From Hyphococcus sp. (GTDB taxonomy: Bacteria > Pseudomonadota > Alphaproteobacteria > Caulobacterales > Parvularculaceae): 64,000 nt of DNA. Every line of letters starts with the position of its first letter. Position 1 is the first letter of the stretch. The DNA lies in the NCBI GenBank assembly GCA_021776415.1, contig JAJFFY010000008.1, forward strand, positions 1-64,000. The letters run 5' to 3'. Shown piece after piece: positions 9,943 to 20,651 of this stretch. The notes beneath the pieces are model-generated. The model ran no database searches and was not told the origin of the DNA. It saw only the letters and a list, made by a program, of their open reading frames with translations. The position numbers and the translations under genes are program-made.

Positions 9943-11346
9943 ATGTTAAATCCTGAAGGCCATACTGAGCTTGGAAAGGTTATTCGGATCGAAGGGTCTG
10001 TCATTGACATTCGTTTCCCAGGCGCCGCGCCTTCGATCAACACAATGTTACGAATCGGCGAGCAAGAGGATATTATTGCTGAAGTCGCCAGCCTGACCGG
10101 AGCCAATACAGCGCGTGCCTTGATCCTTACGCCGTCCTCAAGGCTGGCGCTTGGCGCGCCCGTTATTGACACGAAGCACCCGATTTGTGCGCCAGTGGGT
10201 GAGGCGGTATTGGGACGTGTTTTGAATGTCTTTGGCGAGCCGATCGATCAGGGAGAGCCGTTAAAGGATGTTGAATATCGACCGATTCATGGCGTGCCGG
10301 TTCCGATATTAAAACGGCGCGTTGAAACGGAAATATTCGTTACGGGCATTAAGGCGATTGATCTTCTCTCGCCGATAGAACGTGGCGGCAAAGCTGGGCT
10401 GTTCGGCGGCGCCGGCGTCGGCAAGACGGTTCTGATCACAGAGATGATTCACAACACGGTGAGTGAATATGAGGGGGTAAGTCTTTTTTGTGGCATCGGC
10501 GAGCGCTGCCGGGAGGCTGAGGAGCTTTATCGGAAAATGAAAGACACCGGCGTTCTTGAGCGCGCCGTTCTGGTCTTCGGGCAAATGAATGAAGCCCCCG
10601 CCGTCCGTTTTCGCGTAGGTCATACGGCATTGACAATTGCGGAATATTTTCGAGATGAGCGCCATCAAAACGTCTTGTTACTGATTGATAATATCTATCG
10701 GTTTGTGCAGGCTGGCGGCGAAGTTTCCGGCTTGTTAGGCAGAATCCCTTCACGTGTTGGCTATCAGCCGACCCTGGGAACCGATCTTGCCGAGCTTGAG
10801 GAGCGCATCAGCAGCACCGACGCCGGGTCGATAACGTCAATACAGGCGGTATATGTGCCAGCAGATGATTTCACTGATCCCGCAGCCACACATACTTTCG
10901 GTCATTTTTCGGCGTCGATAGTGTTGTCGCGTAAACGCGCGAGCCAGGGTTTTTATCCGGCGATTGATCCCCTTAAATCTGCTTCAAAATTACTAACTCC
11001 CGGCAGTGTCAGCGATGATCATTATCGGATCGCGATGGAGGTTCGCCAGGTGCTCGCCGACTATGAAGATCTCAAAGATATCATCGCTATGTTAGGAACT
11101 GAGGAGCTGTCAGAAAATGATCGTGCTACAGTTTCTAAAGCGCGGCGCCTCGAGCGATTTTTGACGCAACCCTTTTTCTCTACAGAGAAATTTTCCGGTA
11201 TTCCCGGTGTTTTCGTCACACTTGAAGAAACCCTTGATGGATGTACGCGCATTCTTAGTGGAGAATTAAATGACCAACCGGAAAGTGCATTCTACATGGT
11301 GGGCGGGCTTGGCGCGATGGAGCGGATAGGAGAGGCTGTACTATGA
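9943..11346 (+). CDS. atpD: N-type ATPase subunit beta
   Basis: 467 residues, the catalytic F1 subunit. Walker A is GGAGVGKT (about 155-162), the catalytic Glu lies in GIGERCREAEE and Walker B is in VLLLIDNIYRF. The sequence is diverged from housekeeping beta subunits, for instance IYRFVQAGGEVSGLLGRIPS. It opens the operon in the order beta-epsilon-AtpQ-AtpR-a-c-b-alpha-gamma, which is diagnostic for the N-ATPase, a laterally spread F1FO variant encoded as a second ATPase beside the normal one. The epsilon gene overlaps its stop as ATGA. A FixK box lies upstream. Confidence 0.95.
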   Translation: MLNPEGHTELGKVIRIEGSVIDIRFPGAAPSINTMLRIGEQEDIIAEVASLTGANTARALILTPSSRLALGAPVIDTKHPICAPVGEAVLGRVLNVFGEPIDQGEPLKDVEYRPIHGVPVPILKRRVETEIFVTGIKAIDLLSPIERGGKAGLFGGAGVGKTVLITEMIHNTVSEYEGVSLFCGIGERCREAEELYRKMKDTGVLERAVLVFGQMNEAPAVRFRVGHTALTIAEYFRDERHQNVLLLIDNIYRFVQAGGEVSGLLGRIPSRVGYQPTLGTDLAELEERISSTDAGSITSIQAVYVPADDFTDPAATHTFGHFSASIVLSRKRASQGFYPAIDPLKSASKLLTPGSVSDDHYRIAMEVRQVLADYEDLKDIIAMLGTEELSENDRATVSKARRLERFLTQPFFSTEKFSGIPGVFVTLEETLDGCTRILSGELNDQPESAFYMVGGLGAMERIGEAVL

Positions 11347-11750
11347 CCCGCCCAACAAGCATGCGCCTCAAAGTTCTGACGCCAAGCGATGTCGTGATCG
11401 ATGAGCCGGTTGTAAAGATCGTCGCCGAGGCGACTAATGGGTCTTTCGCGTTGTTACCCAGACATGTTGATTTTGTAGCGCCCTTATCCGCTGGTGTGCT
11501 GGCATATACAACCCGGGCGGGAGACGAATATTTCCTTGGCGTGGACGAAGGCATTCTCGTGAAATATGCGGAGAATGTTCGGGTTTCGACGCGTCGCGCG
11601 GCAAAAGCGCCTAGTCTTGCTTTACTGCGCGATCATATCGTCACGGAATTCGAAGCCCATGACGAGCAAAAAACCGCTGCTCGCATGGCGCTGGCGCGCC
11701 TGGAGCTTGAGCTTATTCGGCGTTTTGTAGAGCTGGAGCATCAATCATGA
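11343..11750 (+). CDS. atpC: N-type ATPase subunit epsilon
   Basis: 135 residues. The N-terminal beta-sandwich is recognisable (LKVLTPSDVVIDEPVVKIVA, then GSFALLPRHVDFVAPL), corresponding to the usual 'GxxGILPGHxPxxxxL' turn of epsilon, and an alpha-helical tail follows. Epsilon links gamma to the c-ring and can inhibit hydrolysis. The start overlaps the beta stop, and its own stop overlaps the AtpQ start, so the three are translationally coupled. The position directly after beta is shared with ordinary atp operons, but the next two genes are N-ATPase specific. Confidence 0.9.
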   Translation: MTRPTSMRLKVLTPSDVVIDEPVVKIVAEATNGSFALLPRHVDFVAPLSAGVLAYTTRAGDEYFLGVDEGILVKYAENVRVSTRRAAKAPSLALLRDHIVTEFEAHDEQKTAARMALARLELELIRRFVELEHQS

Positions 11751-19053: not shown

Positions 19054-20651
19054 AAACCACAATCAAATTCTGCGGCGCCGCCGGGACAGTGACTGGATCA
19101 TGTTACAGGATACGGCATGATGAGCGGAATTTCCTGATTGATTGCGGCATGTTTCAGGGGTCGAAGACGCTGAAGGCGCTCAATTATGACAAATTCCCGT
19201 TCAATCCGGAGAGTATTGATTTCGTTCTCCTAACCCATGCGCATATGGATCACAGCGGGTTAATCCCGAAGCTGATTAAAAATGGTTTCATGGGAAAGGT
19301 GCACGCCACCGAAGGCACGCGCGATCTATTGTCGTTTATGCTGCCGGACAGCGGCTATATACATGAGACTGAAGTTGCTTTCCTGAACCGCCGAAACCGG
19401 CAGCGCGGCATGGATGATGTTGCGCCTATTTATACGCAAGCCGATGCTGAAAAATCTATCACTCGGTTTGATAATGTTGATTATGAAGAATGGCGCGATT
19501 TAGGAGAGGGCATTCGAGCCCGCTTCTGGAATGCCGGTCATATTCTCGGTGCGGCTTCGATAGAACTCGAACTGTCGCGAAAAAACACAAGCGACAAACC
19601 TATTCGCCTTCTCTTTTCCGGTGACATCGGTCCGGAGCATAAGCTGTTTCACCCAGATCCTATCGGTCCGCGCAATCTCGATTATCTGATATGTGAGGCG
19701 ACCTATGGCGATCGGTTGCGCGAAAATTTGAAACCATCTGAACGCAGACAACGTCTTGGGCAAGTTATCAATCAAGCGTTGGCTGGCGAAGGCGTGTTGG
19801 TAATTCCGGCATTCAGCGTTGAGCGCACGCAGGAGTTACTTGCAGATATCAGTCTCTTGATGAGACAGCAGTCAATAAAAGAATCCATTGTGTTCCTGGA
19901 TTCGCCAATGGCGATTCGTGCAACCCGAACCTTTGCACGCCACACCGATAGCCTCGAAGATATTGGTAAGAATGGAGATCTGTTTGAAAATGAGAATTTT
20001 GTTTTTACGAAAAGCGTTGAAGAAAGTAAAAATATCAACATGTATAAAAGTGGTGTCATCATTATTGCCGCAAGCGGCATGTGTGACGCGGGACGCATTC
20101 GGCATCATTTAAAAAGGCGGCTGTGGGACCGAAATACAACCGTCTTGATGATCGGCTATCAGGCGCCTGGAACGCTGGGATCGATCTTGTTGTCGGGAAA
20201 AAAGGCGGTTCACATACAAGGTGAAGACATTAAAGTTCGCGCGCATATTAAAAAACTTGATATATATTCCGGCCATGCTGATGCGAATGGATTGCAGGAA
20301 TGGGTGCTGAACCGCCTGCCAATTCATCGAGCTGTTTTTCTTACCCATGGTGAGCCCGGCGCGCTTGAGGCGTTGCAGAAGCGATTGATTGATGCGGGCT
20401 TATCGTCGGATCATGTTCTAATTCCGAATCTGGACGATGAATATGAGCTGACGACGACAACGGCTTTAAAGCAACGACCCGATCACAAGCCTCGTTTGGC
20501 AGTCGTTGCGGCCGCAAAGTTGGATTGGCACAATGATCTCGCTCAGCTATCCCTCGATATCCGTGAGGAACTTGAAAATGCTGCAGATGAGAAATCAAAA
20601 CAGAAGATTTTACGACGATTGCGCAGGGCGCTGGATACTGAGGGCGCTTAA
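19050..20651 (+). CDS. MBL-fold beta-CASP RNase-like protein with RNA-specificity domain
   Basis: 533 residues. The metallo-beta-lactamase part has motif 2 LTHAHMDHSG, motif 3 (GHILGA) and motif 4 (LLFSGDIG). The beta-CASP insert has VLVIPAFSVERTQEL and SGMCDAGRIRHHL, and the C-terminal RMMBL 'YSGHADANGLQEW' completes the CPSF73-like/YSH1 family. Bacterial members are 5'-3' or endo RNases of unknown target. A 60-residue charged tail is extra. It ends the N-ATPase operon, overlapping the preceding gene by four bases. With the NMP phosphorylase and PRPP-synthetase homologue it suggests RNA breakdown and ribose salvage. Confidence 0.9.
   Translation: MKTTIKFCGAAGTVTGSCYRIRHDERNFLIDCGMFQGSKTLKALNYDKFPFNPESIDFVLLTHAHMDHSGLIPKLIKNGFMGKVHATEGTRDLLSFMLPDSGYIHETEVAFLNRRNRQRGMDDVAPIYTQADAEKSITRFDNVDYEEWRDLGEGIRARFWNAGHILGAASIELELSRKNTSDKPIRLLFSGDIGPEHKLFHPDPIGPRNLDYLICEATYGDRLRENLKPSERRQRLGQVINQALAGEGVLVIPAFSVERTQELLADISLLMRQQSIKESIVFLDSPMAIRATRTFARHTDSLEDIGKNGDLFENENFVFTKSVEESKNINMYKSGVIIIAASGMCDAGRIRHHLKRRLWDRNTTVLMIGYQAPGTLGSILLSGKKAVHIQGEDIKVRAHIKKLDIYSGHADANGLQEWVLNRLPIHRAVFLTHGEPGALEALQKRLIDAGLSSDHVLIPNLDDEYELTTTTALKQRPDHKPRLAVVAAAKLDWHNDLAQLSLDIREELENAADEKSKQKILRRLRRALDTEGA

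Follow-up and report, generated by a model that had tools for sequence, protein, structure and literature searches.

A widespread phosphorylase and PRPP-synthetase-like gene module with a rare but recurrent link to N-ATPase operons

N-ATPase operons, reportedly described by Dibrova et al. 2010, are among the closest described relatives of the locus reported here. The passages that treat these operons present N-ATPases as presumed ATP-driven ion pumps (PMC11738941) and give the gene order as beta-epsilon-Q-R-a-c-(b-delta)-alpha-gamma (PMC5376962, PMC11738941). For the breakdown of nucleoside monophosphates (NMPs), the nearest described system is the archaeal pentose bisphosphate pathway of T. 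kodakarensis, with an isomerase of ribose 1,5-bisphosphate (R15P) and RuBisCO; the relevant sections also present the AMP phosphorylase of this archaeon as a characterised NMP phosphorylase (PMC8376864, PMC9700705). A bacterial R15P-using enzyme, the E. coli ribose-1,5-bisphosphate phosphokinase PhnN, appears in one of the same sources (PMC9700705). In B. diazoefficiens, published tables list bll3117-bll3116-bll3115, encoding a type-2 nucleotide phosphorylase (TP2), a homologue (PRS) of phosphoribosyl pyrophosphate (PRPP) synthetase and an MBL protein, as a predicted operon that carries a FixK2 motif; its expression falls in a fixK2 mutant, and both its RNA and its protein levels rise under microoxia (PMC9104804, PMC6515984). 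The same FixK2 table includes a phosphoketolase-acetate kinase operon. Here we analysed 64,000 nucleotides of Hyphococcus sp. (contig JAJFFY010000008.1, positions 1 to 64,000; hereafter the window), in which an N-ATPase operon is followed by genes for the same three products in the same order. The B. diazoefficiens operon, as listed, names no N-ATPase, and the table passages assign it no function.

We propose that the arrangement represents a module for the oxygen-limited catabolism of NMPs and RNA ribose that would feed ATP to an ion pump, a proposal that we consider evenly poised and that depends on a putative reaction of the PRS-type protein (PRS-E, for the TP2-linked PRPP-synthetase clade). 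An MBL-beta-CASP RNase would help to turn RNA into nucleotides, and TP2, judging from its homology to the characterised archaeal enzyme, would convert NMP + Pi into base + R15P. PRS-E would then transfer the phosphate at C1 of R15P to a nucleotide, most probably as R15P + AMP <-> R5P + ADP (R5P, ribose 5-phosphate); this would be the usual PRS reaction at the beta-phosphate with one phosphate fewer. R5P would enter the pentose phosphate pathway and, where these enzymes are present, phosphoketolase and acetate kinase would add ATP without oxygen; the N-ATPase would spend ATP and so keep up the ion gradient during slow respiration. Regulators of the FixLJ/FixK or FNR type would turn the system on at low oxygen; sites for them were found here, and the induction of a homologous operon is published.

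The genome around the window (G000; below, G-numbers denote the genomes compared and L-numbers loci) comprises 3.3 Mb in 100 contigs and is 85% complete. All twelve open reading frames between 9943 and 20651 lie on the + strand in the list of the window, and profile models or domains assigned a family to each (Table 1), in agreement with the original prediction, whose quoted motifs for the last three genes, including HAHMDHSG of the MBL-beta-CASP protein, are present in the translations. The single direction of the run stands, but the overlap of stops and starts claimed throughout it does not: atpQ and atpR are 12 nt apart, and 33 nt separate atpG from the TP2 gene. The first nine genes are indeed atpDCQRBEFAG of an N-ATPase, as their order and the presence of AtpQ, AtpR and a b-delta fusion show, and the window differs from the described operons in carrying three more genes in line after atpG. 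Alternate-F1F0/N-ATPase models match beta, epsilon, the AtpQ-type gene 1 product, AtpR, a and c; epsilon, a and c pass the curated cut-offs, beta fails that of the alternate-F1F0 model TIGR03305, and AtpR is under the TIGR03165 cut-off (34.5 vs 55.5) and above that of Pfam. Among named genomes, the TP2 locus nearest to that of the window is L037 (labelled Alphaproteobacteria; 96% TP2 identity), which has the same twelve genes in identical order, including an identical 33-nt atpG-TP2 gap. Since the ratio of nonsynonymous to synonymous divergence (dN/dS) between the window and this locus is 0.04-0.23 for all twelve genes, the run is more than a chance arrangement. In the same comparison dS is 0.24-0.35 in the TP2, PRS and MBL genes and 0.42-1.46 in the nine atp genes, which reads as if the history of the three were shared more recently than that of the atp genes. 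Consensus scans of the operon for promoters and terminators gave counts at or below shuffle level.

TP2 and PRS form a widespread module of their own, often accompanied by the MBL gene (the three together, the trio). The TP2 loci counted here are the best 80 of at least 586 relatives in named genomes, and counts based on them describe the closest relatives only. PRS lies near TP2 in 74 of the 80 loci, MBL in 40 and both in 34; the core of TP2 and PRS-E was therefore retained from the original composition of the trio, and MBL, taken there as a fixed member, is optional. In 74/74 loci the TP2 and PRS genes share a strand; their ends overlap in 43, are at most 100 nt apart in 24 and 101-300 nt apart in 6, and are separated by 7 kb in one. 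The hosts include rhizobia, methanotrophs, nitrifiers and sphingomonads. Plasmids carry TP2-PRS with MBL in Sphingobium, Bradyrhizobium, Roseovarius and Methylophaga, TP2-PRS in Novosphingobium and TP2-MBL in Azospirillum; the Roseovarius (L034, 14417-16771) and Methylophaga (L036, 6037-9150) plasmids have the trio among genes for copper-translocating ATPases and copper-binding proteins. Clustering of neighbours in L031-L116, in which some clusters are probably spurious reverse open reading frames, revealed few regular neighbours besides the trio, ABC-transporter and P-type ATPase genes.

The two members of the core differ in how often they occur without each other. Among 398 Pseudomonadota genomes of a phylum sample, TP2 was found in 45 and PRS-E in 41, with both in 40 and adjacent in 38, and a class sample of 289 genomes contained TP2 in 42, PRS-E in 21 and both in 20. 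From these counts, PRS-E is nearly always found with TP2, and TP2 is often found without PRS-E. In the class sample, 115 of the 289 genomes matched TP2, and the 42 kept had a best match of at least 296 bits, the rest scoring at most 131 bits and being PyNP/TrpD-like; the PRS-E searches matched 176 and 222 genomes and were cut at a score gap (kept, at least 285 bits; others, at most 160). Co-occurrence statistics here ignore the relatedness of the genomes.

PRS-E combines a conserved PRS architecture with an altered phosphate loop. Its predicted model (pLDDT 95.4) has the PRS fold, with TM-scores of 0.85-0.87 against the PRPP synthetases of M. jannaschii (1u9y) and T. volcanium (3mbi), and F35, D37, E39, R93, Q94, D95, H126, D170, K193, R195, D220, D221 and T228 are conserved in at least 90 of the 91 distinct TP2-linked sequences aligned (L123 and L124, which duplicate L001 and L009, were omitted, as were the weak matches L137-L141). 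It differs from these enzymes in three respects. The PDxGG loop has become PDxE[S/A] in 91/91 linked copies, with Ser in 82 and Ala in 9 after Glu172, whereas 8/8 housekeeping PRS (one per genome, G000 included) keep Gly-Gly and the M. jannaschii enzyme has Gly-Ala. An HLHR motif at 126-129 is invariant in 91/91, and Trp176 is present in 88/91. Finally, in a tree of 41 linked, 8 housekeeping and two other PRS, the linked copies form one clade (support 100/99); a copy in G640 that is not linked to TP2 carries the same motif. Position 96, which by its motif would correspond to R99/K99 of the E. coli and human PRPP synthetases (PRPS), is Lys or Arg in 27/91. In the structural descriptions available, this residue touches the beta-phosphate in both enzymes, D170 of the E. 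coli loop holds a metal on the hydroxyls of R5P, and K176 of human PRPS2 contacts the beta-phosphate of ADP. Because of the D170 and K176 contacts, the altered loop of PRS-E would sit at the transferred phosphate, the residue matching between PRS-E and these loops being our own assumption.

A loop holding one phosphate only would turn R5P + ATP <-> PRPP + AMP into R5P + ADP <-> R15P + AMP, and PRS-E run towards R5P would conserve the C1 phosphate made by TP2. We therefore propose, from sequence comparison, that PRS-E handles R15P and not PRPP; the guess in the original prediction at R15P as a possible substrate of the PRS homologue gains support from the Glu conserved in the phosphate loop. 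As far as our literature searches reach, PRS-E as a separate subfamily is new here. The same features have to be weighed against ordinary salvage, in which a Glu172-tolerant PRPP synthetase would reuse bases released by TP2 and recycle nucleotides in slow, oxygen-limited cells. Such an enzyme would be expected to keep the fold and catalytic residues, as PRS-E does, and to match the curated model NF005537, named ribose-phosphate diphosphokinase (344 bits, cut-off 322); the second Gly of the loop is, moreover, already Ala in the M. jannaschii enzyme. However, G000 encodes a housekeeping PRS as well (L132), no linked copy departs from Glu172 or HLHR, and PRS-E occurs almost exclusively with TP2, a pairing needless for a general PRPP supplier. 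We consider salvage unlikely.

TP2 is a bacterial relative of AMP phosphorylase, with its substrate assigned by homology. It scores 687 bits with NF003338 (cut-off 434) and 625 bits with TIGR02645 (cut-off 434.6), and its best solved relative by both sequence and fold is the T. kodakarensis AMP phosphorylase: the predicted structure aligns with 4ga5 at a TM-score of 0.89 over 501 columns, compared with 0.71 for pyrimidine nucleoside phosphorylase (PyNP). In a comparison of 119 TP2 rows with the T. kodakarensis enzyme and one PyNP, TP2 and the archaeal enzyme share an N-terminal domain and the PGN, SSRAITS, ER and DIPxG motifs, which are absent from the PyNP. The match of the model along its whole length supports the predicted NMP-to-R15P reaction, and we speak of a relative because the score with the AMP phosphorylase equivalog model TIGR03327 is under the cut-off (477.6 vs 535 bits).

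The third gene product has the MBL, beta-CASP and RMMBL domains, with HxHxDH and the other metal-site motifs conserved (57 rows). Its best solved match is the TTHA0252 RNase of Thermus thermophilus (2dkf, 212 bits), with which it has the domain layout in common, although window-type trio copies are about 100 residues longer (533 vs 431). The best NCBIfam match is Cas14 of type VII CRISPR (340 bits, cut-off 800), above aCPSF1; in phmmer comparisons the protein is nearer TTHA0252 than Cas14 (212 vs 183 bits). A reading of the trio as a defence system was rejected: PADLOC had no hit to TP2 or MBL, and its hits to PRS were phosphoribosyltransferase-domain matches of just 25 bits.

The fate of R15P was followed through the known users of this compound. 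The original prediction had seen no R15P isomerase in the window, and the wider searches agree: none of 41 genomes (40 with TP2, plus G633) has a match over the cut-off, compared with 3/14 control genomes, and the weaker matches in 25/41 are probably MtnA. RuBisCO is present in 19/41 overall; G000 and the four other genomes searched from its order gave no RuBisCO match. The archaeal isomerase/RuBisCO route was rejected for the window genome, 85% complete, in which no isomerase over the cut-off and no RuBisCO was found; in this respect the system differs from the T. kodakarensis pathway and would have PRS-E in place of these enzymes. PhnN belongs to a protein family other than that of PRS-E and is over the cut-off in 9/33 genomes, G550 of the window's order among them and G000 not (this set, also used for phosphoketolase, comprised 32 PRS-E genomes and G633; G352 lay outside it). 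With the isomerase in 0/41 and PhnN in 9/33, known R15P users are few. In L144 and L069, phosphoketolase and acetate kinase genes lie no more than about 12 kb from the module. In two genomes (L142, L143 at 2803-5184, L145), the neighbour of PRS-E is a divergent member of the phosphoketolase family, which matches XFP with 137 bits and XFP_N with 52 bits and has no match to XFP_C.

The pair of enzymes might also work in the opposite direction, with PRS-E phosphorylating R5P to R15P from ADP or ATP and TP2 joining bases to it, which would make NMPs while sparing PRPP. Both reactions are reversible in principle, and the passage on the archaeal phosphorylase describes NMP synthesis from R15P (PMC9700705). 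We consider this quite unlikely, as the linked RNase (40/80 loci) and the few phosphoketolase and acetate kinase neighbours indicate breakdown, and low-oxygen induction would better suit a need for energy.

The link between the module and N-ATPases is rare but recurrent. An exclusive tie of the trio to N-ATPase operons was rejected: within flanks of up to 10 kb an N-ATPase was found at 3/80 TP2 loci (L037, L046 and L100). The trio is present in other N-ATPase operons, the order of the window recurring in L037 and L046. L046, on a contig titled Deltaproteobacteria, has the whole N-ATPase-trio order, with 77% TP2 identity to the window and the MBL gene cut by the contig end; transfer and binning error are both possible explanations of its title. 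Two further arrangements are an N-ATPase followed after a 223-nt gap by TP2 and PRS-E (L149, in G528) and TP2, PRS-E, phosphoketolase, a DUF2254 gene and an N-ATPase on one strand (L150, in G352). The c subunit of the window has EST..Y, which by its motif would be of the Na+ type, and the corresponding motifs are ETM in L149 and ESV in L037. Because these motifs differ, the coupling ion would vary across the system, and the idea of it as a constant was rejected.

These data bear on whether the N-ATPase and the trio are merely separate low-oxygen cassettes that come to lie side by side in stress islands and have co-regulation, but no pathway, in common. Such an origin would fit the lack of a flanking N-ATPase at 77/80 TP2 loci, a finding that also weighs against our proposal, as well as the 153-nt leader with its own box before the L046 trio, the convergent N-ATPase and module of L100 (Gammaproteobacteria) and the integrase-core remnant directly downstream of the window operon (rve_3, 41 bits; 20808-21176, - strand). 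On the other hand, AtpR occurs in 15 of the 83 TP2 genomes searched (10/42 and 5/41), and TP2 and N-ATPase are close in 3 of these 15 (the window, G528 and G352), against 0.1-0.2 expected from random placement; without the window, 2/14 are close (P 0.003-0.02). TP2 was found in 10/23 AtpR genomes and in 32/266 others, with relatedness ignored, and the N-ATPase label changes 4 times on a tree of a chosen subset of 50 TP2, at least 3 of the changes being forced by well-supported branches. We hold separate cassettes to be rather unlikely, an estimate raised because of the recount without the window. To the extent of our literature searches, the repeated N-ATPase link is new.

The predicted low-oxygen setting was borne out by the neighbourhood. 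Divergent from atpD are genes for a FixL-type PAS kinase, a FixJ-type regulator and a Crp/Fnr-family protein, and beyond them lie Hsp20, APH/AAA, CBS, BON and host-attachment/baeRF genes; FixL, Hsp20, CBS and phosphoketolase also appear in a FixK list published for Alphaproteobacteria (PMC2908626). Perfect TTGA-N6-TCAA boxes number 8 in the window, compared with 1.6 expected, and 0/100 shuffles reach 8. In addition to the candidate box before atpD (Table 1), they stand before the host-attachment and Hsp20 genes and over the listed BON start, with two distant ones at 29701 and 48643. A perfect box lies at most 300 nt upstream of TP2 in 10/78 loci, with 1.3 expected (L063 and L092, with little upstream DNA, were omitted). 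The original prediction took the system for a candidate undescribed one; in part it is described already, since its regulation in a rhizobium has been published. Within our searches, what the trio does, the PRS subfamily and the recurrence of the N-ATPase link were without earlier description. For a functional account of the trio, for PRS variants and for an N-ATPase with the trio, the literature covered yielded only the two B. diazoefficiens tables, and a review of ribosyl 1,5-bisphosphate in MMBR may have noted such a system before.

Several further observations weigh against the proposed catabolic module. Six of the 80 TP2 loci have no nearby PRS and 22 of the 42 TP2 genomes of the class sample have no PRS-E, so TP2 can function in its absence; PRS-E without TP2 occurs in G640 and G051, and G633, of the same genus as the window, has neither TP2 nor AtpR. 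MBL is missing from 40/80 loci. The TIGR03327 score noted above belongs here too, as do the copper-resistance neighbours, which do not fit a purely low-oxygen role. Phosphoketolase is present in 10/33 genomes, two of them only by the divergent homologue, in the flank of 1/80 TP2 loci in its canonical form, and gave no match in G000, a genome 85% complete. The step from R15P to ADP is uphill by several kJ/mol under standard conditions, and no activity for a member of the linked-PRS group was found in the literature covered. Of the scheme first predicted, the low-oxygen setting, the NMP-to-R15P step and a PRS acting on R15P are kept, and a trio tied to N-ATPases and an obligate MBL are given up. 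A broader version, in which PRS-E is a new R15P:AMP (or ADP) phosphotransferase and, with the NMP phosphorylase, gives bacteria an unrecognised, oxygen-independent route from RNA and nucleotides to R5P plus a high-energy phosphate, wired independently in several lineages to an N-ATPase that would use the ATP for ion pumping, is offered tentatively, as possible but on balance doubtful.

Table 1. Features of the predicted twelve-gene operon and its upstream region (window coordinates).
Feature	Coordinates	Strand	Evidence and remarks
Crp/Fnr-family regulator, candidate FixK	6283..6975	-	cNMP_binding + HTH_Crp_2; 90% identical copy at L037 edge
FixJ-type response regulator	7278..7952	-	Response_reg + GerE; copy in L037
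PAS-PAS histidine kinase, FixL-type by domains	7891..9576	-	PAS, HisKA, HATPase_c; copies in L037, L046
Predicted FNR/FixK box TTGATTTCAATCAA	9678..9691	.	Between fixL and atpD; L037 and L046 also have a box 5' of atpD
atpD, N-ATPase beta	9943..11346	+	TIGR03305 728 bits, under cut-off 752
atpC, epsilon	11343..11750	+	TIGR03166 130 bits, above cut-off
atpQ	11747..12049	+	TIGR02230 133 bits, above cut-off
atpR	12062..12394	+	PF12966 50.1 bits, cut-off 26
atpB, subunit a	12384..13091	+	TIGR03306 340 bits, above cut-off
atpE, subunit c	13092..13370	+	TIGR03322 145 bits, above cut-off; two carboxylates, EST..Y
atpF, b-delta fusion	13369..14163	+	ATP-synt_B + OSCP
atpA, alpha	14160..15713	+	ATP-synt_ab
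atpG, gamma	15692..16612	+	ATP-synt
TP2, NMP phosphorylase-type enzyme	16646..18160	+	NF003338, TIGR02645; whole-length fold match 4ga5
PRS-E, PRPP-synthetase homologue	18157..19053	+	NF005537; phosphate loop GPDQEAGAW (Glu172)
MBL-beta-CASP-RMMBL protein, probable RNase	19050..20651	+	MBL, Beta-Casp, RMMBL domains; nearest solved chain TTHA0252 RNase

Two other parts of the window were noted. Inside the low-oxygen cluster, 4040-5569 encodes a bipartite protein, one half APH-like and the other AAA_33/zeta-like; L033 and L107 have homologues of it close to the module. The region 21215-31985 resembles a sugar-use locus, with ROK kinase, TonB receptor and tryptophan-halogenase-like genes called by domain search and MFS and LacI-type genes recognised from translations.

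If the proposed catabolic module is real, widely distributed proteins annotated as PRPP synthetases would be misannotated, and genomes that have no R15P isomerase and mostly no PhnN would have an R15P-using enzyme. The module would also account for an unexplained part of the FixK2 regulon and would give a reason to keep a second, hydrolytic rotary ATPase. Many Pseudomonadota could then draw energy from their own RNA without oxygen.

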